Position numbers and translations under genes: made by a program
Shown: piece by piece, positions 47,399 through 58,404 of the stretch
Layout of the letters: every line of letters starts with the position of its first letter
Numbering within the stretch: the first letter of the stretch is position 1
The notes under the pieces: generated by a model
What the model was told of the DNA's origin: nothing
The model's input: the letters and a program-made list of their open reading frames with translations, nothing else
Database searches by the model: none
Assembly (NCBI RefSeq): GCF_001244545.1
Contig: NZ_LN852694.1
Coordinates: 62,001 to 126,000, forward strand
DNA length: 64,000 bases
Origin: Candidatus Stoquefichus sp. SB1
GTDB taxonomy: Bacteria; Bacillota_I; Bacilli_A; Erysipelotrichales; Coprobacillaceae
Reading direction: 5' to 3'

Positions 47399-48184
47399 AT
47401 GAATATAACAGATGAAAATATTGATGGTGGAAAAGCTTTTGATTTTGGGAAAACTTCAGCAGATTATGCAAAATTTAGAGATATTTATCCACAGGAATTT
47501 TATGATAAAATCATAAACCGTCAATTATGTATGAGTGGTCAAAGTGTCCTTGATATGGGAACAGGAACAGGAGTTCTACCTAGAAATATGTATCGCTATG
47601 GAGCAAAATGGACAGGTACAGACATATCTGAAAATCAAATTGAACAAGCTAAAATTCTTTCGGAAGGTATGGATATTGATTATTATGCATTATCAGCAGA
47701 AAACATCAATTTCCCAGATGAATCATTTGATGTTATTACGGCTTGTCAATGTTTCTGGTATTTCAATCATGAGGAAATTGTATCTAAGTTTTATCGTATG
47801 CTTAAGCCTAATGGACGGATTCTTGTATTGTATATGGCTTGGTTGCCTTATGAAGATAAAATTGCAGGAGCAAGTGAAAAACTTGCACTGAAATATAGTC
47901 CACAGTGGAGTGGTGCTGGAGAAACAATCCACCCAATAAGTATACCTGATTGTTATGATGAAAAATTTGAACTCATTTATCATGAAGAGTATCCTTTATA
48001 TGTACATTTTACTCGTGAAAGCTGGAATGGAAGAATGAAGGCTTGTCGTGGGATTGGTGCTTCACTTACGGAAGAAGAGATTGCCATGTGGGAACAGGAA
48101 CATTTAAAGTTACTTACTGATAATGCTCCTGCTGAGTTTGATGTTTTGCATTATGGTGCCATTGCTGAACTTAAAAAGAAGTAA
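47399..48184 (+). CDS. Class I SAM-dependent methyltransferase
   Basis: A 261-residue methyltransferase. Motif I is SVLDMGTGTGVL at 49-60, and further motifs are TDISENQIEQA at about 75, AENINFPDESFDVITA, and LKPNGRILVLYMAW. This is the UbiE/type 11 fold. No substrate marker is visible. TTGGAGGGG precedes the ATG. It appears monocistronic, apart from the small zinc-ribbon gene 87 bases later. Confidence 0.88.
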   Translation: MNITDENIDGGKAFDFGKTSADYAKFRDIYPQEFYDKIINRQLCMSGQSVLDMGTGTGVLPRNMYRYGAKWTGTDISENQIEQAKILSEGMDIDYYALSAENINFPDESFDVITACQCFWYFNHEEIVSKFYRMLKPNGRILVLYMAWLPYEDKIAGASEKLALKYSPQWSGAGETIHPISIPDCYDEKFELIYHEEYPLYVHFTRESWNGRMKACRGIGASLTEEEIAMWEQEHLKLLTDNAPAEFDVLHYGAIAELKKK

Positions 48185-48271
48185 GATTTCAATTCTTGTT
48201 GAAGTGTGTTTATGGGTAAAGGATGGTTTTTATAAAAAACTAACGAGTCAAAACGTTTGGAGGTGTTGATA

Positions 48272-48496
48272 ATGATTTGTCCTCAATGTGGCAAAGAGAT
48301 GCAGCCAGGATTTTTACAAACAGGGAATATCATTGCATTCAATAAAACAAGACATAAAATATCGTTAAATTCAAAACATGAAGAGGATGTTATGATAGCA
48401 AAAAACACTCTCATGGGATCAGATTTTCATGCCTTTATTTGTAAAGAATGTGGTCTGATTGTGTTTGATTATAAAAATGTTATCTCACATTTATAG
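48272..48496 (+). CDS. Small zinc-ribbon protein (PF20097-like)
   Basis: A 74-residue protein with CPQCGKEMQPGFL at the start and CKECGLIVFDY near the end, two CxxC knuckles that can bind one zinc. The spacer contains a beta-rich segment. It matches a small Firmicutes family of unknown function. The ATG at 48272 follows TTGGAGGTG. A terminator lies at 48532. Confidence 0.75.
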   Translation: MICPQCGKEMQPGFLQTGNIIAFNKTRHKISLNSKHEEDVMIAKNTLMGSDFHAFICKECGLIVFDYKNVISHL

Positions 48497-48531
48497 TTTC
48501 CTATTTGATTGTGATTTCAATTCGATATGAC

Positions 48532-48570
48532 AAGCAGTTTATCTTTATGACGAACTGCTTTTTCTTTTTG
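48532..48570 (+). terminator. Terminator after the zinc-ribbon gene
   Basis: AAGCAGTT at 48532-48539 pairs with AACTGCTT at 48553-48560, followed by TTTCTTTTT. Confidence 0.75.
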
Positions 48571-48680
48571 TAAGAAGTGTCATATCATACAATCAATTCT
48601 AATTTAAGAATGATACAATATAAAAAGTGATAATAATACTGAGTGTATAAATGTCACTGAAAATAAAAAAGGAGGAAATT

Positions 48681-50216
48681 ATGAAAAAAATAACAATAAT
48701 GGTTGTCGCAATGATGATGTTGTTTACACTGACTATTCATAAAACGTCTGCGGCTGATGAAACATTTGAAAAAGATGGTCTAACGTACCAAATGATTGGC
48801 GAAAATAATGTCAGTGTTATTGGTGCTGATAAAACACGAACTTCCTATAATATACCACAAACCATTGAATATAATGATGTTATGTATACTGTTGTCAGTT
48901 TAGGAGATCATTTATTTTATGATAATGTTAATCCTGCTGCTTTGGTTTCGATTACACTTCCTGAAACAATCACGAGTATTGGTACAGGAGCGTTTCAAAA
49001 TTGTAAACAGTTAAAATCTGTTAAGATTCCTGATGAAGTGAAAATAATTGAAAATTATACATTTCAAGACTGTCTTCGTTTAGAAAATATCCAACTCTCT
49101 CATCAATTAACAGAAATAAAATCAAATGCTTTTTATCATTGTGCTAAATTAGAGGCAATAGCTCTTCCAGATAGTGTCAAAAAAATTGCAGATAATGTTT
49201 TTATTGATTGTCATTCGCTTAAATCAATTGTCATTCCAAAAAATGTTGAATCTTTAGGTGCATCATCACTATGGTATTGTACAAATTTAGAATCAGTAAC
49301 ATTATCTAATAAGATTGCAAATATTAAAGATACAGCATTACAGCATTCTTCAAAACTTTCAAAAATAATGGTTATAACTGATACAAAGGATGAAATAATG
49401 AATCCTCAAATTTTAGCAGCTGTCAATAAAATAACAAATCCACATCAAATCTATCGTGGTGTCACACACGTAAAAGCAAATCAAAGTACAATTCATGCGA
49501 ATAGGGGACAAACACTAGATTTAGATTCATATTTTGATAAAACATTTCAAGTATATGATGAAAATAATCAATTGTCATCGGCAATGATGATTCCGTCAAA
49601 TTATCAAAATGTAGAATATCAATTAATAGGAACTCATTTCCCAAAGACTCAAATTTCAGGACATCAGATAAAAATAGGGGATGATGAAACAAATTCAATA
49701 CAAATCAAAGCTAATCTCAATGGTTATAGTGATACTTTAACAGTGGATGTTCTTGAAATTACAATCACAAATATTGAAATTGATGAAAAGCCAGAGAAAA
49801 CAACCTATTTTGAAGGAGAATTCTTTAATCCTGAAGGTTTAAAAATAAAGGTTCATTATAGTGATGGAACTTATAAAATAGTTACTTATAATCAAGATTC
49901 AAAAGCGAATTTCTCATTTTCTCATCAAGATCCATTAAAAACAACTGATAATAAAATCATTATGAAATATGCACAACATTTAGTAGAATTCAATATAGAG
50001 GTTCAAGCAAAAGATGTGATTAATGATGATAATCAGGAGGATCAAACAATTCCAGATAATAAGCCACAAGAAGAACCTGTTCAAAAACCTGAATCAATAG
50101 AAAATGATACTCCAAAAACAGAAGATCAGACAATGATTTTAGGATTAACACTTCTTATGATTGTCAGTGGAGCAATTGTATTTATAAAAATGAAAAAACA
50201 AAGTTATGAAATATAA
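48681..50216 (+). CDS. Surface protein with BspA-type leucine-rich repeats and a PxTxD sorting signal
   Basis: A 511-residue cell-wall protein. The signal peptide covers about residues 1-24. BspA/Treponema-type leucine-rich repeats occupy about 85-245 (five units ending GAFQNC, YTFQDC, NAFYHC, NVFIDC, SSLWYC). A bacterial Ig-like unit follows (TNIEIDEKPEKTTYFEGEFF). The C-terminus has TPKTED at 477-482, a helix and a KMKK tail, a sortase-type signal lacking the Gly of LPxTG. It probably binds host or microbial ligands. The ATG at 48681 follows AAGGAGG. Confidence 0.85.
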   Translation: MKKITIMVVAMMMLFTLTIHKTSAADETFEKDGLTYQMIGENNVSVIGADKTRTSYNIPQTIEYNDVMYTVVSLGDHLFYDNVNPAALVSITLPETITSIGTGAFQNCKQLKSVKIPDEVKIIENYTFQDCLRLENIQLSHQLTEIKSNAFYHCAKLEAIALPDSVKKIADNVFIDCHSLKSIVIPKNVESLGASSLWYCTNLESVTLSNKIANIKDTALQHSSKLSKIMVITDTKDEIMNPQILAAVNKITNPHQIYRGVTHVKANQSTIHANRGQTLDLDSYFDKTFQVYDENNQLSSAMMIPSNYQNVEYQLIGTHFPKTQISGHQIKIGDDETNSIQIKANLNGYSDTLTVDVLEITITNIEIDEKPEKTTYFEGEFFNPEGLKIKVHYSDGTYKIVTYNQDSKANFSFSHQDPLKTTDNKIIMKYAQHLVEFNIEVQAKDVINDDNQEDQTIPDNKPQEEPVQKPESIENDTPKTEDQTMILGLTLLMIVSGAIVFIKMKKQSYEI

Positions 50217-50218
50217 GG

Positions 50219-50242
50219 AGAAGGAAGCCCTTCTTCTTTTTC
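50219..50242 (+). terminator. Terminator after the BspA-like gene
   Basis: AGAAGGAAG and CTTCTTCT form a slightly bulged hairpin followed by TTTTC. Confidence 0.6.
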
Positions 50243-50252
50243 ATTTGTTAAG

Positions 50253-50280
50253 TTGAAAAATATATTTAATCATGTATAAT
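50253..50280 (+). promoter_or_regulatory. Promoter of the ABC-F gene
   Basis: -35 TTGAAA at 50253-50258, 16-base spacer, -10 TATAAT at 50275-50280. Confidence 0.7.
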
Positions 50281-50310
50281 AAGGAAGACTATGAAAGAGG
50301 AGAAACAAAG

Positions 50311-51906
50311 ATGATATCAACACAAAATGTAACATTAAGATATGGTGATAGAGCTTTATTTGAAAATGTTTCTATACAGTTTACAGAAGGAAACTGTTAT
50401 GGAATCATAGGAGCCAATGGAGCTGGGAAATCAACCTTTTTAAAAATACTATCTGGTGAAATAGAACCAAATAAAGGGGAAGTTGTTGTCACACCGGGAC
50501 AAAGATTATCGGTTTTAAAACAGGACCATTTTGCTTATGATGAAATGGAAGTTTTAAAAACTGTTTTAATGGGAAATAAACGTCTTTATGAAATTATGGT
50601 AAGAAAAGAAGAACTTTATAGCAAACCTGATTTTAATGATGAAGATGGGATTGAATTGGCTGAATTAGAAGGTGAATTCATGGAAATGGATGGCTGGAAT
50701 GCGGAAACTGATGCTGAGATATTATTGAATGGATTAGGAGTAACTGGGGAATTTCATCATGTTTTGATGAAAGAACTTGGTGATCAACAAAAAGTGAAAG
50801 TTTTATTGGCACAGGCATTATTTGGTAATCCTGATATTCTTTTATTAGATGAACCTACAAACCATTTAGATATAAAGAGTATTAATTGGCTGGAAAATTT
50901 CTTACTTAATTTTCCTAATACTGTGATTGTTGTTTCACATGACCGACATTTTTTAAATAAAGTATGTACCCATATTGCAGATATTGATTTTAGTAAGATT
51001 CAATTGTATGTAGGAAATTATGATTTCTGGTATGAATATTCACAAATGATGGTAAAACAAGCTAAAGATATCAATAAAAAAGCAGAAGCTAAGAAAAAAG
51101 AATTAGAAGAATTTATTGCACGTTTTAGTGCGAATGCTTCTAAGGCAAAACAAGCGACTTCTCGTAAGAAATTATTAGATAATTTAGAGATGGTAGATAT
51201 TAAACCATCACTAAGAAGATATCCTTTTATTGGTTTTACTCCAGATCGTGAAGTTGGGAATATTGTTTTAAATGTTGAAGATTTATCTTATGAAGTCAAT
51301 GGTGAAAAGATATTAAATCATATTTCTTTTTCTGTAAATCCAAAAGATAAGATTGCTTTTGTTGGTGAACATGAATTAGCAGTCACATCGTTCTTTAAAA
51401 TTATTACTGGTGAAATTAAAGATTATGAAGGAACATTCCAATGGGGAGTCACAACATCACAATCTTATTTTCCTAAAGATAATAATGAATATTTTGAAAA
51501 TTGTGATTTAACATTGGTTGATTGGTTACGTCAGTTTACAGATGAAGATGTCTATGATCAAGATTTAAGAGGTTGGCTAGGAAGAGTACTATTTTCTGGT
51601 GAAGAAGCACTTAAAAAAGCAAATGTTTTATCTGGAGGAGAAAAAGTAAGATGTATGTTGGCTAAAATGATGATGGCAAATTGTAACGTTTTGATTTTAG
51701 ATGAACCGACAAACCATCTTGATTTAGAGTCTATTCAAGCTTTAAATGAGGGACTTATGCGTTTTAAAGAGAATATTTTATTTTCATCACATGACCATCA
51801 GTTTGTACAGACTGTTGCAAATCGTGTTATTGAATTTAATGAAAAAGGTTGCTTAGATCGTTTATCAACATATGATGAGTATTTAGAATATAAAGAAAAT
51901 ATGTAA
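50311..51906 (+). CDS. ABC-F family ATPase (YbiT/YkpA-like)
   Basis: A 531-residue protein with two nucleotide-binding domains and no membrane segment, acting on the ribosome. The first domain has Walker A GANGAGKST and Walker B LLLDEPTNHLD, with an atypical signature ELGDQQK. The linker (KKAEAKKKELEEFIARFSAN) is the ribosome-contacting coiled arm. The second domain has a good signature LSGGEK and Walker B, but its Walker A reads GEHELAVTSFF and lacks the Lys. This is the YbiT/YkpA pattern. It may ease stalled translation. The ATG at 50311 follows GAGGAG. Confidence 0.9.
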   Translation: MISTQNVTLRYGDRALFENVSIQFTEGNCYGIIGANGAGKSTFLKILSGEIEPNKGEVVVTPGQRLSVLKQDHFAYDEMEVLKTVLMGNKRLYEIMVRKEELYSKPDFNDEDGIELAELEGEFMEMDGWNAETDAEILLNGLGVTGEFHHVLMKELGDQQKVKVLLAQALFGNPDILLLDEPTNHLDIKSINWLENFLLNFPNTVIVVSHDRHFLNKVCTHIADIDFSKIQLYVGNYDFWYEYSQMMVKQAKDINKKAEAKKKELEEFIARFSANASKAKQATSRKKLLDNLEMVDIKPSLRRYPFIGFTPDREVGNIVLNVEDLSYEVNGEKILNHISFSVNPKDKIAFVGEHELAVTSFFKIITGEIKDYEGTFQWGVTTSQSYFPKDNNEYFENCDLTLVDWLRQFTDEDVYDQDLRGWLGRVLFSGEEALKKANVLSGGEKVRCMLAKMMMANCNVLILDEPTNHLDLESIQALNEGLMRFKENILFSSHDHQFVQTVANRVIEFNEKGCLDRLSTYDEYLEYKENM

Positions 51907-51916
51907 TTGATTAAAG

Positions 51917-51946
51917 GAAGTTTTCATTTAAATGAAGACTTCTTTT
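51917..51946 (+). terminator. Terminator after the ABC-F gene
   Basis: GGAAGTTTTCATT pairs with AATGAAGACTTC, then TTTTT. Confidence 0.85.
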
Positions 51947-52060
51947 TGTTATGGAAGATGTCTAATTGAAAAAATGTATTTAATAATGAAATTTATAAAA
52001 AATAAAATTTATGCAATAATTGATGTTATGATTGTATTAATAAGGTGAAAGGGGAGACAT

Positions 52061-52591
52061 ATGCATATGAATAATCGAGAAATTGATCAATTAATTTTAA
52101 ACATTCCCCAAATTGATAATGCTTTTCATGAATTATATGAGAAAACACGAACGCTTGTTTTTGCATATATTATGAGCATTATCAAAAACTATGATGATAG
52201 CAGTGATATTATGCAGGAGACTTATATAAAAATATATCTGGCAAGTTCTTCTTATCATTCTATGAAAAAGCCACTTGCATGGATATTTACAATTGCTAGA
52301 AATGAATGTTATCTGCATTTACGAAGAAGAAAAATGAATCAGGAATATGATGATAATATGTCTTTGCCTCAAGTGAATAATTGGGAAACACAAATGATAT
52401 TAGAACAATTATTTCAAGCTCTTAATGATAAAGAAAGAGAAATTATTATTATGCATTCATTATGGGGCTTTAAGCATTATGAAATTGCAACATTATTAGA
52501 TATTCCATTAGCAACTTCACTATCTTGCTATCGACGAGGAATGAAAAAAATGAAAGAAATAGGAGGTAGAGTGGATGAAAGATTTAAATGA
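52061..52591 (+). CDS. ECF-type RNA polymerase sigma factor
   Basis: A 176-residue sigma-70 group 4 factor. Region 2 spans about 20-90 (YIMSIIKNYDDSSDIMQETYIKIY, KPLAWIFTIARNECYLHLRR; each shown in part). Region 4 spans about 115-170 (LNDKEREIIIMHSLWGFKHYEIA, LATSLSCYRRGMKKM) and is the -35 recognition helix. GGGGAG precedes the ATG at 52061; an ATG two codons later is also possible. Its last 17 bases overlap the anti-sigma gene, a standard coupling in sigma/anti-sigma pairs. Confidence 0.9.
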   Translation: MHMNNREIDQLILNIPQIDNAFHELYEKTRTLVFAYIMSIIKNYDDSSDIMQETYIKIYLASSSYHSMKKPLAWIFTIARNECYLHLRRRKMNQEYDDNMSLPQVNNWETQMILEQLFQALNDKEREIIIMHSLWGFKHYEIATLLDIPLATSLSCYRRGMKKMKEIGGRVDERFK

Positions 52592-53945
52592 GGTTTTTCA
52601 GGAAATTACACCAGATTCTTATCAGTCAATCCAAACTCAATTACAAAATAGAAATGAAGAGATTGTTGTGGAACAACCCAAAAAGAAAAGAAAAATATAT
52701 TATGTATTACCAGTTATGATGATTGTTTTGATTGCAATATTGACAATCAGTCAAAAACCAAATCAAGTCATAGCCACTGTAGGATTTGATGTTAATCCAA
52801 GTATTGCTATAGATATTGATGATCAAAATAAAATTGTAAAAGTTCATCCATATAATCAAGATGGTCAAAAGATTATTGGAAGTATGAAATTAGAAGGCAA
52901 TGATATTGAATTAGCAACAAATGCATTAATTGGTTCTATGTTAAAACAAGGGTATATTAATGAATTAAAAAATTCTTTACTAATATCAGTGACGGGAGAT
53001 AATCAAGAAAAGAATGAACAATTGCGTATGATATTATCAATGCATATTGATGAATATTTAAAAGACAGTCAAATTCAAGGCTCTATTTTATCACAAACTG
53101 TTTCACAAAAAAAAGATATTGAAGCTTTAGCAAGTCAATATCAAATTTCTATTGGAAAAGCAGAAGTGATTCAAGAACTGATTCATAAGAATAACCGTTA
53201 TACTTTTGAGTCCTTAAAAGATTTATCAGTCAATGATTTAAATATTCTATTGCATAAAAATAGCATAGATATTCATACAACAGGAACACAAGCAAGTGAA
53301 AGTGGATATATTGGTAAAGAAAAAGCAATGGAAATTGCTGTGAATGATGCCAAAGTTTCACAACCAACAAATCAACATGTAGAATTGGATTATGATGATA
53401 ATGTCATGATTTATGAAGTGGAGTTTGTAAAAGGAGATATAAAATATGAGTATGATATTCAAGCAAGTCACGGGAAAATACTTAAGAAAGAAGTAGAGGA
53501 AAAAAAGAAAAATCATACCAATAATCAATCTTCATCACAAAAACAAATAACAGAAGCTAAGGCAAAAACAATAGCAATGAATCATGCAAGTGTTCAAAAT
53601 ATTACTCAATATGAATTCCATAAAGATGATGAAGATGGACAATTGGAATATGAAATGAAATTTGTTAGTGGTCAATATAAATATGAATATACGATTCGTG
53701 CTCATGATGGAAAAATATTGGATTATGAAAAAAAGGATATGGGTGAAATCAAGGTTACTCAAGAAGAGGCTAAAAATAAAGCCTTTCAACATGCAAATGT
53801 GAAAGCTACACAAGTTAAAAATTTAGAAGTCGAACTAGAAAAGAAATACTATGAAGTGAAATTTGAAGTTGGGCAATATGAATATGAGTATCATATTGAT
53901 AAAATCAATGGTCAAATATTGTTTCATGAAAAAGAAAGAGATTAA
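52575..53945 (+). CDS. RsgI-like membrane anti-sigma factor with PepSY domains
   Basis: A 456-residue single-pass protein. About 40 cytosolic residues would hold the sigma factor. A transmembrane helix lies at 41-59. An outside segment VIATVGFDVNPSIAIDID (65-82) has Asn74-Pro75, the site at which RsgI-type anti-sigma proteins are reported to self-cleave. Three PepSY-like units follow (about 245-305, 325-385 and 390-455; EYEYDIQASHGKIL, EYTIRAHDGKIL, EYHIDKINGQILF). They probably sense an extracellular signal. AGGAGGT lies 7 bases before the ATG. It overlaps the ECF gene by 17 bases. Confidence 0.85.
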   Translation: MKDLNEVFQEITPDSYQSIQTQLQNRNEEIVVEQPKKKRKIYYVLPVMMIVLIAILTISQKPNQVIATVGFDVNPSIAIDIDDQNKIVKVHPYNQDGQKIIGSMKLEGNDIELATNALIGSMLKQGYINELKNSLLISVTGDNQEKNEQLRMILSMHIDEYLKDSQIQGSILSQTVSQKKDIEALASQYQISIGKAEVIQELIHKNNRYTFESLKDLSVNDLNILLHKNSIDIHTTGTQASESGYIGKEKAMEIAVNDAKVSQPTNQHVELDYDDNVMIYEVEFVKGDIKYEYDIQASHGKILKKEVEEKKKNHTNNQSSSQKQITEAKAKTIAMNHASVQNITQYEFHKDDEDGQLEYEMKFVSGQYKYEYTIRAHDGKILDYEKKDMGEIKVTQEEAKNKAFQHANVKATQVKNLEVELEKKYYEVKFEVGQYEYEYHIDKINGQILFHEKERD

Positions 53946-53960
53946 AATTGTTTTGAGTAA

Positions 53961-54002
53961 AAAAGAGATTTTCGGTCATAATAGACATCAAAATCTCTTT
54001 TT
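53961..54002 (+). terminator. Terminator of the sigma/anti-sigma operon
   Basis: AAAAGAGATTTT at 53961-53972 pairs with AAAATCTCTTTT at 53990-54001. Confidence 0.8.
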
Positions 54003-54212
54003 CATATGCACTGATTCGTTATCCGCTTATATATCATTTTAATAAGTGTTGTCTCTATAATATATCATATATTCTTAATGATGTTATCTGTCTATATCCT
54101 TTAATTTTGGTTAAAATAAATAAGACCACTAGAGAAATGAAAGCTAAGAAAATTGTTTCTAAAATCATTTGTATAACCATATATAATATGGTGGTATATT
54201 TATTTTTTATAC

Positions 54213-54232
54213 AAAAAAAGGCTTTCGCCTTT
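54213..54232 (-). terminator. Terminator of the flavin reductase-like gene
   Basis: On the minus strand AAAGGC-GAAA-GCCTTT is followed by TTTT. The gene's stop codon is part of the stem. Confidence 0.8.
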
Positions 54233-54734
54233 AAATGTTCTGATAGATACTTTTTATTTTAGCAATATACATGATATGATAATCATGCTCTGGGTAACAT
54301 TTTTCATCTAATGTTTGGTCTAAGAAACACTCCGGTTTAATCGTATCTTCATAAATCTTTTCAACAATGAATACAAGTTTTGCTTCTTCAAAAGTAGGAA
54401 CACCTTCTAAAAAAGTTGGATGAAAATGCACATCTGTTATTTTATCAGTATCACGTCCAGAAACTGTTCCAAGAATACTCAATTCTTTTTTATATCCATC
54501 AAAAAAAGATAGTGAGAAACAACTTTCCTGATCTACAAATTCTTTTGTATAACGTTGTGGACGAATATAAGCAGTGACAACATTTTCATTCCACAGTACA
54601 CCAATACCACCCCAAGAAGCGGTCATTGTATTGATTTTTTGCTGGTTACCAGCAGTAATTAACATCCAATCCTTACCTATTGCAGTCAATGGATTCATAT
54701 CTAAATCCTGAATATTTATTTTTTGAAATGCCAT
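54231..54734 (-). CDS. Flavin reductase-like (FMN-binding split barrel) protein
   Basis: A 167-residue protein of the flavin-reductase-like fold. The segment GKDWMLITAGNQQKINTMTASWGGIG near residue 20 is the FMN-binding start, followed by VTAYIRPQRYT and CFSLSFFDG. It resembles the small flavoproteins of anaerobes that may reduce free flavin or iron. Third of three tandem ATGs (54734) is chosen, since GGAGG at 54742-54746 is 7 bases upstream. It is transcribed alone. Confidence 0.82.
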   Translation of the reverse strand: MAFQKINIQDLDMNPLTAIGKDWMLITAGNQQKINTMTASWGGIGVLWNENVVTAYIRPQRYTKEFVDQESCFSLSFFDGYKKELSILGTVSGRDTDKITDVHFHPTFLEGVPTFEEAKLVFIVEKIYEDTIKPECFLDQTLDEKCYPEHDYHIMYIAKIKSIYQNI

Positions 54735-54804
54735 CATCATTCCTCCTTTATATGATATTATATCACATGAAATACGAAAATAGTAAAAAACAAAATGAAA
54801 GCAG

Positions 54805-55734
54805 GTGATTCACATCAAAAAAATCTTAAAAATTGTGATTGTTTTTATATTGGTTCTCATATTAATGATAAGTTGTTTATCATTATATATTGGAAATTAT
54901 TTGTATGATTATACTTTAAATCCCTATTCTAAACATAATATTTCTGAAAAAATAGAAACAAACAAAACGGTGGAAGAAGCATCTCGTCAGTGGTTAAGTG
55001 ATAATGGTGTGAATGTTTCATTAGAAAATGAAGAACATATGAATTTATATGGGTGTTATATTGATCAGGGAAGTTCAACTTATGTAATTATGGTACATGG
55101 TTATCGAGGTGATGGAGCAAGTATTATTTCACCTATTAAAAACTTTAAGAAACAGGGCTATAATCTTTTGATTCCTGATTTAAGAGGACATGGATTTAGT
55201 GATGGTGATTATATAGGGATGGGCTGGGATGATCGTTTGGATATTATTCAATGGATTGATTATCTTATCCAAAAGGATCAAAATGCCTCTATTATTTTAT
55301 ATGGAGTATCAATGGGTGGAGCTACTGTTATGAATGTCGCTGGAGAAAAAATTCCTAAACAAGTCAAAGCAATTATAGAAGATTGTGGTTATACAAGTGT
55401 CTGGGATGTCTTTAAAACACATATTAATATGAATGAAGTAGAAAGTGAGATTGCTTTGCATATGGCTAGTTTTGTGACAAAAATGCGTGCTGGATATTAT
55501 CTTGAAGATGTAAAACCAATTGAACAAGTGAAAAAAAGTCAAACACCTATTTTATTTATTCATGGCAATCAGGATAATTTTGTTCCTTTTTCTATGCTTG
55601 ATGAACTGTATCAGGCAGCAAATTGTCAAAAAGAAAAATTGGTGGTTGAAGGAGCAGGGCATGCCAATAGTTGTTCAGTAGGTGAAGATATTTATTATCA
55701 GACAATTTATCGATTTATTGAAAATTATCAATGA
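54805..55734 (+). CDS. Membrane-anchored alpha/beta hydrolase
   Basis: A 309-residue outward-facing hydrolase with an N-terminal transmembrane helix (about residues 5-30). The oxyanion motif is VHGYRG; the nucleophile is Ser169 in GVSMGG, with Asp257 (GNQDNFVPF) and His286 (AGHANS). This is the BAAT/acyl-like family of surface hydrolases. The start is odd: GTG 54805 lies inside the AGGTG ribosome site, and the expected ATG position six bases later reads ATC. Substrate unknown. Confidence 0.82.
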   Translation: MIHIKKILKIVIVFILVLILMISCLSLYIGNYLYDYTLNPYSKHNISEKIETNKTVEEASRQWLSDNGVNVSLENEEHMNLYGCYIDQGSSTYVIMVHGYRGDGASIISPIKNFKKQGYNLLIPDLRGHGFSDGDYIGMGWDDRLDIIQWIDYLIQKDQNASIILYGVSMGGATVMNVAGEKIPKQVKAIIEDCGYTSVWDVFKTHINMNEVESEIALHMASFVTKMRAGYYLEDVKPIEQVKKSQTPILFIHGNQDNFVPFSMLDELYQAANCQKEKLVVEGAGHANSCSVGEDIYYQTIYRFIENYQ

Positions 55735-55738
55735 AAAA

Positions 55739-55772
55739 ACATGAACTAAAACAAATTTGTTTTAGTTCATGT
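55739..55772 (-). terminator. 34-base perfect palindrome, terminator for the small minus-strand gene
   Basis: Bases 55739-55772 form one perfect palindrome around AAATTT, so the hairpin can form on either strand. A T run of six follows on the minus strand only, so it ends the small gene at 55793. The plus-strand hydrolase may also stop here. Confidence 0.75.
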
Positions 55773-55792
55773 AATGATTGGTTATAGATAAT

Positions 55793-55981
55793 CTAGGCTA
55801 CATTTTTTTGAATCTCATTTTTAAGCTCATACAGTAAATGTCTCACTTCTTCTAAGTTGTCAATAACTGATGAAATTTGTTGCTTTTGCTGAAATGATAA
55901 ATCATCGTTATTAAATTTAACTAAAGTCAAAAGTGTCTCATATAATAAATCATTTGCTTTATCTACGCTGTTATTATTCAT
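55793..55981 (-). CDS. Small coiled helical protein
   Basis: A 62-residue, acidic, alpha-helical protein with a heptad-like C-terminal half (NLEEVRHLLYELKNEIQKN). No family is recognised and no membrane segment is seen. A ribosome site is present upstream (GAGGT on the minus strand) and a strong terminator follows, so it looks like a genuine single gene. It may pair with a partner by coiled-coil contact. Confidence 0.6.
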   Translation of the reverse strand: MNNNSVDKANDLLYETLLTLVKFNNDDLSFQQKQQISSVIDNLEEVRHLLYELKNEIQKNVA

Positions 55982-56012
55982 TTTGTTTATACCTCGTTTC
56001 TTTATATCTGAA

Positions 56013-56465
56013 TTATACTATAAAATGACAACAAAGAATTATAAAGACAATCAAGATGTAGCTATAATTCCAAACTTTTTTTAAAAATAAAACAAAAATA
56101 AAACCAAAACATTGAATTGCTATGTTTATACATAAGACACCAAATGGGATTTGTCGAAAAAAGTAGAAAAATAAGATAAAATGTAAAAAAATGAAAAAAA
56201 CTATATATTTTAAGAATTGTTTGAAAAGAAGTTTCAAACAGTCTATACGATTAAGACGAATGCGAATAAAAGTATAAAGAATAATATATTGATAAACGAT
56301 CTGATAAAAATATGTACACCAAAAAATTTGGATAGCTATAAATATAAAATAACGAAAATCAATTATTGGATAATGTAAAAGAATAGCTGGTAACATAGTT
56401 TTATAAAGCGAATATAAATATCCAAATAATAATGTATAAACAAGACTTGTTTTAATCCATTTCAT
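56013..56465 (-). CDS. Membrane protein of the ABC exporter operon
   Basis: A 150-residue protein with about four transmembrane helices (starting near residues 7, 30, 75 and 120). It is the last gene of the exporter operon and overlaps the ATPase gene by 14 bases if the ATG at 56465 is used, or 32 bases with the ATG at 56483; no clear ribosome site helps decide. It is likely a third membrane subunit of the transporter. Family unknown. Confidence 0.6.
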   Translation of the reverse strand: MKWIKTSLVYTLLFGYLYSLYKTMLPAILLHYPIIDFRYFIFIAIQIFWCTYFYQIVYQYIILYTFIRIRLNRIDCLKLLFKQFLKYIVFFIFLHFILFFYFFRQIPFGVLCINIAIQCFGFIFVLFLKKVWNYSYILIVFIILCCHFIV

Positions 56466-57060
56466 CTTGTTTGAATTGACCATTTTCTAAATGATATATA
56501 TGTGTATAATGAATTTCTTTGAGATAGTCATGTGCTGCAATAACAATTGTTTTTCCTTGGGCATTGAATTCATTTATTGTTTGACAAAATGTTTGAATGG
56601 ATTCAGCATCCAGTCCTCTGGTTGGTTCATCTAATAAAATAAGATTCTGATCTTCCATAATCGCTTGAATAATACCAGCTTTCTGACGCATCCCTAGAGA
56701 ATAATTTTTTAATTTTATTCGACTTTGATAATCTAATTGAAATAATTGGCAAAGTTGTTCTATTTTTTGAGGATCATGATTGTGATTTAAGGAAGCTAAG
56801 AATTTTAAGTTAAATGCAAGTGTTTCATTTTCAAGAAAACCAGGATTTTCAATCAATGCACCAATATGTATATCAGAAGATATTTGAATTGTTCCTGAAT
56901 CAGGTTTTAATATATCACAAATCAACTTAAATAAAGTTGATTTACCAGAACCATTAATACCATGGATATAAACCAATTGACCTGTTTGAATTTTTAAATT
57001 TAAATGATCTAAAACGAGATGATGATGAAAAGATTTTGATAAATCATGTATTTCTAACAT
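56452..57060 (-). CDS. ABC exporter ATP-binding protein
   Basis: A 202-residue ATPase. Walker A GINGSGKST at 34-42, signature YSLGMRQK at 120-127, Walker B LILLDEP at 140-146 and the H-loop His (AAHD). It is of the short type that serves ABC-2-like exporters for peptides, lantibiotics or lipids. The signature SLGMRQ replaces LSGGQ, common in this subgroup. It is third in an operon of membrane proteins and overlaps the next gene. Confidence 0.92.
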   Translation of the reverse strand: MLEIHDLSKSFHHHLVLDHLNLKIQTGQLVYIHGINGSGKSTLFKLICDILKPDSGTIQISSDIHIGALIENPGFLENETLAFNLKFLASLNHNHDPQKIEQLCQLFQLDYQSRIKLKNYSLGMRQKAGIIQAIMEDQNLILLDEPTRGLDAESIQTFCQTINEFNAQGKTIVIAAHDYLKEIHYTHIYHLENGQFKQDEMD

Positions 57061-57071
57061 AGTAAACTCCT

Positions 57072-57569
57072 TTATGATAAATTAATAAATAAAATATGAA
57101 ATAAAAAATTAACAAAAATAGGTAATGCTAAATAAATAAAATTTTTCTTTTGACCAATCTGTAAATAAATAATCGTTGTTTCTATACCCATGATAATAAA
57201 ATTATAAATCATAAAAACAACAGTGATTTGAAAAGATTCACTAGGAATTGCTCCAAAAAAGAAAGCATAACTTATATAAATGATAAGTGTATATAGTGCT
57301 CCTAATAGAAACAATGCTACATATGTCCATATATAAACTGCTTTTTCTCCAAGACGAATGACCATTGGTTGAAAGAAAACATTGAGTCGATAAGCAAACT
57401 GATAAGTCATTAAAAGAAAAATGTTATTCATATAAACAGTTAAATAATGAGAGTAAATTAAACATATTGTATAAGTGTTTTGACCACATAAAGTGGGGGA
57501 TGCAATAAGCATAATCATTAATAATAAAAGTATTCGTTTATCTAATAGTTGATAGAGTTTTTTAATCAT
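57072..57569 (-). CDS. ABC exporter membrane subunit, small
   Basis: A 165-residue protein with about five hydrophobic helices and a basic first few residues (KKLYQLLDKR). Its start overlaps the end of the larger permease gene by 8 bases, and the ATPase starts 11 bases after its stop. It should form the membrane part of the transporter with the 58404 product. No family name is assigned. Confidence 0.65.
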   Translation of the reverse strand: MIKKLYQLLDKRILLLLMIMLIASPTLCGQNTYTICLIYSHYLTVYMNNIFLLMTYQFAYRLNVFFQPMVIRLGEKAVYIWTYVALFLLGALYTLIIYISYAFFFGAIPSESFQITVVFMIYNFIIMGIETTIIYLQIGQKKNFIYLALPIFVNFLFHILFINLS

Positions 57570-58404
57570 ATTGTTCTCTCCGTTTTTTTAATATTTGAAA
57601 ACATCCAAAAGAGAAACCACTATAAATGCCAGCACTCACAAGATAGAGAGTAAGATGTGAAAAACCAAATGGATTGGCTCGTACATTTTCCATACCAATC
57701 GCAACAAGATTATTAATTTGTAAAATAAATGCCAGATCAGGATTAGGTAAGTAACCTTGAATTAAAGCTGGAATCAGGACAAGTAGAATCCCAAAAATGA
57801 CACCAAAACAACGATAAATATATTTATTTGTAATAATGACTTGTAATGAAAATAAAAGACTAGAGACAATTCCGTAACCAATTGCTGTCAATACAGTAAA
57901 CAAGAAAAGACTTAGAATTTCATTTTGGCAAAAAAGTTGTGTTGTACAATAATAATTTTCAGGATATGTCATTGTATTGAATTGAATAGGTGCATAAAAG
58001 AAATGAATTGTTATTAAAATGAATATTTGAATAATGAAAACAGTCATTATAGAGATCATAATATTTTTGATAAAAATATTATGATAATAACTTCGTTTAG
58101 ATATACGAGCTTCAATCATATAGTCCGCATGATTTTGATGAATATTTAAAAAATCATAAGATATCAGATTCGGCATCAATAACATAAGTAATATAAATAA
58201 AAATGGATTAACGCCAACACAATAAAGATAATAAAAAAATTCTAAGCCAGCATTGGGATAGGTTTGACTATATTGATCATAAGAATAAATCGAATTATGA
58301 TAAACAGTTGATATACTCATTAAAATAAGTACAAGAATTCCCAATACCAATAATCCCTTTTCAATTGTGAGAAAAGGAGACCATAATTGCTTTGTTTGTT
58401 TCAT
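57562..58404 (-). CDS. ABC exporter membrane permease, large
   Basis: A 280-residue permease with about six or seven transmembrane helices and an external loop (YHNSIYSYDQYSQTYPN) near residue 31. It resembles ABC-2-type permeases. It leads the operon, after AAAGGAGG, and is divergent from the LytTR regulator gene. The intergenic -35 box TTGACA and a direct repeat beside it suggest activation by that regulator. Confidence 0.75.
   Translation of the reverse strand: MKQTKQLWSPFLTIEKGLLVLGILVLILMSISTVYHNSIYSYDQYSQTYPNAGLEFFYYLYCVGVNPFLFILLMLLMPNLISYDFLNIHQNHADYMIEARISKRSYYHNIFIKNIMISIMTVFIIQIFILITIHFFYAPIQFNTMTYPENYYCTTQLFCQNEILSLFLFTVLTAIGYGIVSSLLFSLQVIITNKYIYRCFGVIFGILLVLIPALIQGYLPNPDLAFILQINNLVAIGMENVRANPFGFSHLTLYLVSAGIYSGFSFGCFQILKKRREQYD

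Follow-up and report, generated by a model that had tools for sequence, protein, structure and literature searches.

An ECF sigma factor gene overlapping a gene for an RsgI-like, PepSY-bearing candidate anti-sigma factor in Candidatus Stoquefichus

Introduction

ECF sigma factors are the group IV sigma factors, and sigma24C of C. thermocellum is ECF-like. Self-cutting sensors of the RsgI type are known with the sigma factor SigI, mostly for the cell wall or plant fibre, and the self-cleavage of RsgI was reportedly described in two papers of 2023. The outer domain of these proteins, RsgI_M, is presumably the one called SEAL.

The name SEAL appears in the accessible text of PMC12203970. As outlined there and in PMC10202637, as far as these texts were available, the RsgI chain runs from self-cutting of the outer domain through loss of the outer piece to a cut in the membrane by RseP and degradation of the tail by ClpXP. 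The locus described here shares with SigI–RsgI of B. subtilis and C. thermocellum an RsgI_M/SEAL-type domain, an Asn-Pro bond, a single membrane helix, a variable outer sensor, an operon with the sigma gene and RseP in the genome. It differs at both ends. SigI lacks sigma4, according to the portion of PMC10575876 consulted, whereas the partner here, an ECF factor, has a sigma4 domain; RsgI has an RsgI_N tail, which is missing here; and the outer modules named in the available part of PMC12203970 are CBM, GH, PA14 and S1C, in place of which this protein has PepSY domains. The nearest precedent is sigma24C–Rsi24C, which the excerpt of PMC3990059 lists beside RsgI-like pairs with a sigma not named SigI; the likeness lies in that listing, and the Rsi24C sensor is GH5-like whereas the sensor here is PepSY. 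RsiV and RsiP, as far as the sources at hand describe them, are also Gram-positive membrane anti-sigma factors of ECF factors activated by regulated intramembrane proteolysis, but they have another outer domain, and it is a protease, not the anti-sigma factor, that makes their site-1 cut. YpeB, YpmB and other PepSY proteins share the PepSY fold, tandem or single, but have no anti-sigma fusion.

Here we establish computationally the gene pair, its domains and predicted fold, the conserved Asn-Pro, a sigma partner other than SigI, the upstream motif and the presence of RseP. What is new in kind is a swap at both ends, with an ECF factor and a short tail of two predicted helices for SigI and RsgI_N, and PepSY for carbohydrate modules. 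Our literature search found no description of an ECF/RsgI pair, of a PepSY-RsgI protein or of a PepSY-bearing anti-sigma factor of an ECF system; most subscription papers and the main ECF classification lay outside its scope, and an earlier notice is possible. With this system it can be tested cleanly whether release by self-cutting is portable.

The gene pair

The window, the whole stretch of 64,000 nucleotides that was analysed, comes from contig NZ_LN852694.1 of Candidatus Stoquefichus sp. SB1. Its relevant features, in window coordinates, are as follows.

52012..52039, + strand: promoter-like motif TGCAATAA-N14-GTATTA, probably the promoter for ECF autoregulation (conserved upstream motif)
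52061..52591, + strand: ECF sigma factor, 176 aa (ORF and profile matches; alternative ATG start at 52067)
52575..53945, + strand: membrane anti-sigma factor candidate, 456 aa (ORF, Pfam domains)
52575..52703, + strand: cytoplasmic tail, residues 1–43 (two short predicted helices, 2–11 and 16–24, pLDDT 36–64)
52695..52751, + strand: transmembrane helix, about residues 41–59 (sequence; helix at 44–58 in the model)
52773..53270, + strand: RsgI_M/SEAL-type domain, residues 67–232 (Pfam 67–201; structural match 75–232)
52794..52799, + strand: Asn74-Pro75, presumed self-cleavage bond (codons; alignment with RsgI chains; conservation)
53301..53498, + strand: PepSY repeat 1, residues 243–308 (Pfam, model)
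53538..53735, + strand: PepSY repeat 2, residues 322–387 (Pfam, model)
53745..53942, + strand: PepSY repeat 3, residues 391–456 (Pfam, model)
53960..54002, + strand: terminator-like A/T-rich hairpin at the operon end (fold z-score -3.24; none of 200 shuffles equally stable)

The 17-base overlap noted in the initial annotation is present, as the two ORFs share nucleotides 52575–52591. A GGAGG at 52562–52566, 8 nt 5' of the ATG at 52575, supports this start of the second gene. The 176-aa product matches Sigma70_r2 (9.3e-13) and Sigma70_r4_2 (2.4e-8), both over the Pfam cut-off, scores 66.2 bits with TIGR02937 against a cut-off of 42.9, and has solved ECF factors among its sequence matches. It has the make-up of an ECF (group IV) factor, being short and holding sigma2 and sigma4 only, and the same operon encodes a candidate membrane anti-sigma factor that would inhibit it. 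Chance ORFs were ruled out by the Pfam domains, the conserved Asn-Pro of the relatives and the spread of RsgI_M proteins, which were found in 22 of the 40 genomes from the family and in 64 of the 392 from the phylum.

The hairpin at 53960..54002 was not picked up by a G+C-based terminator scan. A sigma-70 promoter scan was uninformative (20 found, 19.0 expected), no RNA element was found within 48000–58000, and the locus had no match in a plasmid collection, which is still compatible with horizontal transfer. Two genes ahead of the operon, window positions 48651–50216 encode a secreted protein that is rich in repeats and anchored in the membrane at its C-terminus, which from its sequence we take to be a BspA-like leucine-rich-repeat surface protein.

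The anti-sigma candidate and its Asn-Pro bond

The main model of the 456-aa protein was built from 41 aligned relatives (mean pLDDT 86.3) and contains two tail helices at low confidence, a membrane helix, an RsgI-like domain and three PepSY domains. The parts that had been read from the letters alone are borne out: the transmembrane helix is predicted at about residues 44–58; DVNPSI with Asn74-Pro75 is encoded, its Asn-Pro codons at 52794–52799; the self-cleavage-type domain matches RsgI_M (PF23750) over residues 67–201 (6.3e-28, 98.4 bits, cut-off 25.3); and PepSY (PF03413) is matched in three stretches (1.1e-16, 61.4 bits, cut-off 24), C-terminal to RsgI_M, in the place of carbohydrate modules as proposed. 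Neither RsgI_N (PF12791) in the whole protein nor any known Pfam anti-sigma domain in the cytoplasmic tail was matched. The tail of about 43 aa with two helices of low pLDDT may be set beside class II (CnrY-like) anti-sigma domains, defined in the text seen of PMC7406223 as shorter than 50 aa with two helices that wrap the ECF factor.

The best solved sequence relatives of the protein are all RsgI outer domains. In the structural comparison, for which an earlier model from 12 sequences was used, model residues 75–232 match RsgI2 (8hdj) with Z 16.5 and an rmsd of 2.3 over 147 aligned residues, and the solved RsgI domains range from Z 13 to 16; the B. subtilis RsgI mutant 8t9n (Z 15.5) spans model residues 65–199. 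For the five cleaved C. thermocellum RsgI chains listed (8hdj, 8hep, 8heq, 8her and 8u9o), every structural alignment opens at model residue 75, and the sequence search places the first residue of every chain on Pro75. The Asn-Pro sits in the modelled loop that joins strands 67–72 and 76–81. Both residues are invariant in 12 of 12 close relatives and in 41 of 41 chosen PepSY-type relatives, and each is kept in at least 90% of 72 ECF-partnered members. A simple pattern count finds Asn-Pro near the domain start in 132 of 135 ECF-partnered proteins, with at least one entry (TMTNPKKR) in the tail rather than the loop. By analogy with the solved chains, the membrane protein probably cuts itself at Asn74-Pro75.

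The sigma partner is not SigI

The initial annotation took the partner to be an ECF factor rather than SigI, a reading that grouping with SigI would have overturned. We tested the grouping, and the sigma trees put SigI apart. A single ECF sequence, shorter than 140 aa, was omitted before the trees were built (135 to 134). The smaller tree, with 50 of the 134 ECF rows and four 'spo' rows chosen by length, has the ECF partners on one side (94) and 11 SigI sequences on another (99, starred), and SigI separates again in the larger tree with all 134 (100, starred). All 11 SigI sequences match TIGR02895. The partner sigmas match ECF-type NCBIfam models in 134 of 134 cases among the matches listed, which cover 25 of 105 families, so the exclusion of SigI rests on the trees. 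In the Stoquefichus sp. SB1 genome SigI (TIGR02895) has no match over the cut-off and four weaker ones, and RsgI_N has no match at all; the B. subtilis control was positive in both searches. Nor is RsgI_N one of the 17 Pfam families with a match in at least one of the 72 ECF-partnered relatives. SigI as the partner is thus rejected, on the lack of a SigI over cut-off in the genome and on the separation in the trees.

The sigma-only tree carries a second signal. Mapped onto its 145 rows, the partner's PepSY label needs just 2 changes, against a mean of 44.8 when shuffled, which argues that sensor and sigma travel together; the PepSY-type pairs form nearly one block.

A conserved upstream motif

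Upstream of the ECF genes (150 nt + 30 nt examined), TGCAATAA occurs in 67 of 135 cases, against a mean of 1.5 and a maximum of 6 in 200 dinucleotide shuffles. It precedes 65 of 89 PepSY-type pairs versus 2 of 44 PepSY-less pairs, 2 of the 46 having been excluded for less than 100 nt upstream; the exact form is missing from the stretch examined in 24 of the 89 PepSY-type operons. Sixty-two of the 135 have it 14 nt ahead of nnnTT, 61 of them PepSY-type, and column counts give a consensus of about TGCAATAAWA-N12-TGCATT. On the sigma tree the motif label takes 15 changes. The conserved motif resembles the promoter expected of an autoregulated ECF operon. ECF -35 elements are described with AAC in the available part of PMC6056542; the motif here has AAT. 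The copy at 52012–52039 makes it likely that the operon is autoregulated, and the motif gives a handle for finding the ECF regulon.

In the Stoquefichus sp. SB1 genome the exact pattern has 3 matches versus 1 for the reversed control, 2 of the 3 reading as inside other genes, and it stands in promoter position solely before this operon; in a genus mate, 1 of 6 exact matches is in promoter position. A wider regulon in Stoquefichus sp. SB1 was dropped, as no second gene has the exact motif in promoter position. With one mismatch allowed there are 65 matches versus 11 reversed in Stoquefichus sp. SB1 and 58 versus 11 in the genus mate. Of these 123 matches 21 loci were inspected, and ORFs cover most of them; an earlier form of the pattern beat its control also in most genomes without the pair. 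We therefore draw no regulon from the one-mismatch matches.

MurA makes the first committed wall precursor. In all four testable genomes of one related genus, by inference Massilimicrobiota-like, the motif lies 220–232 nt ahead of the single murA gene, in one of them with a mismatch; the murA upstream of a fifth genome is cut by a contig end. At L249:1501-2998, L227 and L230 the distance from motif to gene is about 200 nt, a long untranslated stretch lying between them. The motif was found before murA in none of 10 other pair-bearing genomes, Stoquefichus sp. SB1 included (two with less than 450 nt upstream examined), and in none of 9 genomes without the pair in the stretch examined. As a general target murA is rejected, the motif preceding it in one genus only. 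There it hints at a role in the cell wall, and it is the sole functional hint that the sequences give.

Proposed mechanism and alternatives

From these findings we infer inhibition of the ECF factor, self-cleavage, the order of the cuts, promoter use and the nature of the signal, as follows. The two genes would make up a self-contained, autoregulated envelope-signalling operon in which an anti-sigma factor with a self-cutting RsgI-type domain and a PepSY sensor restrains the ECF factor, and we consider this the probable reading. The anti-sigma factor would be a membrane protein whose short N-terminal tail lies in the cytoplasm and holds the ECF factor there. On the outer side, once the RsgI-type (SEAL) domain has folded, it would most likely cut its own chain between Asn74 and Pro75, with both pieces kept together by a beta sheet that they share. 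The outer sensor would consist of the three PepSY domains; a change in whatever they bind, for which the condition of the wall or a wall enzyme is the likeliest candidate, would release the outer piece. The site-2 protease RseP, for which the Stoquefichus sp. SB1 genome has a match over the cut-off, could then cut the membrane helix, and degradation of the tail would free the ECF factor to transcribe, its first target being its own operon through the TGCAATAA-N14 motif. What we propose is thus, by analogy, the chain described for RsgI with an ECF factor as the endpoint.

The same anti-sigma factor could work without self-cleavage, the Asn-Pro being kept for folding while a separate site-1 protease starts the cascade. 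According to the passages seen of PMC12203970, RsgI8 is not self-cleaved and B. subtilis RsgI still signals to some extent when its cut is blocked, so that an Asn-Pro alone leaves the mechanism unsettled; and RsiP, in the text available of PMC8844934, is cut by signal peptidase. The near-invariance of exactly these two residues, in the 72 ECF-partnered members as in the 41 PepSY-type relatives, and the start of the solved self-cut chains at a Pro that aligns with Pro75 nevertheless make this course unlikely. Mere co-transcription of the two genes, with no regulation of the ECF factor by the RsgI_M protein, would fit the lack of a known anti-sigma domain in its tail and the existence of tail-less RsgI_M proteins of lipoprotein type. 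We regard this reading as very improbable, since the overlapping pair is kept from Erysipelotrichales to Clostridia and sensor type and sigma tree go together.

For the signal, the initial annotation had suggested a protease or peptide, and this gained no positive support. An M4-type protease or its propeptide could free the outer fragment by binding to the PepSY domains, PepSY being a peptidase-propeptide domain, and the vibriolysin propeptide chain 3nqz is among the fold matches of the PepSY part (Z 8.9). But YpeB 5boi (9.3), a C. difficile lipoprotein (9.3) and YpmB 2gu3 (9.0) match equally or better, differences in Z below 1 being treated as ties, and around the 63 loci compared neither a protease gene nor any other third gene is conserved, the most widely shared cluster of neighbours being present at 7 of them. 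We think a secreted protease or peptide rather improbable as the signal. Given the ties with the wall proteins YpeB and YpmB and the murA motif, a wall-derived signal is at least as likely. That the PepSY domains monitor the wall, either by themselves or by way of a wall hydrolase or synthase, with the ECF factor answering with wall genes, has in our estimate about an even chance: the YpmB–MreC model 9a5z is among the fold matches, the motif precedes murA in one genus, and B. subtilis RsgI senses wall defects according to the accessible parts of PMC10202637 and PMC7478892, but the murA motif is missing from the 10 other ECF-bearing genomes. More tentatively, and with some doubt, the operon may represent a distinct, widespread class of envelope signalling in gut Firmicutes, in which a self-cutting, force-releasable RsgI domain has been separated from SigI and combined with an ECF subfamily, a PepSY wall sensor and a promoter type (TGCAATAA-N14-nnnTT) of its own. 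The ECF factor would then fire without a site-1 protease, and in Stoquefichus the operon would perhaps be nearly its sole exact target, a self-reinforcing switch.

Distribution and related loci

We sorted 197 distinct RsgI_M proteins, after dropping matches shorter than 150 aa and dropping or merging proteins with identical last 100 residues. The gene next upstream encodes an ECF factor in 135, SigI in 11 and neither in 51. The 135 ECF/RsgI_M pairs come from Erysipelotrichales and Clostridia genomes, 89 with PepSY and 46 without, and their ORFs overlap in 99. Among the 132 proteins that the Pfam model retrieved by itself (72 ECF, 11 SigI, 49 neither), PepSY occurs in 26 of 72 ECF-partnered proteins, 0 of 11 SigI-partnered ones and 13 of the remaining 49. 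The other 65 proteins, 63 with an ECF factor, were collected by a scan with a PepSY-bearing query, a biased set whose Clostridia loci were preselected for PepSY, so the PepSY in all 63 is uninformative on frequency. Carriers include Candidatus Stoquefichus massiliensis, Longibaculum muris, Roseburia inulinivorans, Massiliimalia timonensis and Flavonifractor strains; the same putative two-gene switch is found across many gut Firmicutes.

The Stoquefichus sp. SB1 genome holds a second ECF/RsgI_M pair, without PepSY (L002:1420-2623; near 966558–967118). Its anti-sigma factor has a His-rich C-terminal tail, and the gene just ahead of the ECF gene codes for a small, likewise His-rich secreted protein. 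At least 5 His in the last 40 residues are found in 12 of 46 PepSY-less versus 0 of 89 PepSY-type ECF anti-sigma factors, and a metal sensor is possible for this second pair.

Among the 51 RsgI_M proteins lacking a sigma gene next upstream, 40 have a lipobox and no cytoplasmic tail, usually with Asn-Pro intact (for example L076:1791-3011, L059:241-1521, L061:2035-3168 and L090:3357-4511). The gene lies directly ahead of an ECF gene in 11 cases and immediately behind an RsgI_M anti-sigma gene in 14; such a protein is possibly a detachable second half or a decoy of the sensor. At L080:1090-5201, and similarly at L028 and L096, a canonical SigI–RsgI pair is followed by an RsgI_M lipoprotein and then by further genes, which at L080 we take from their starts to encode a VTC-domain protein, a small membrane protein and a CotH-like protein.
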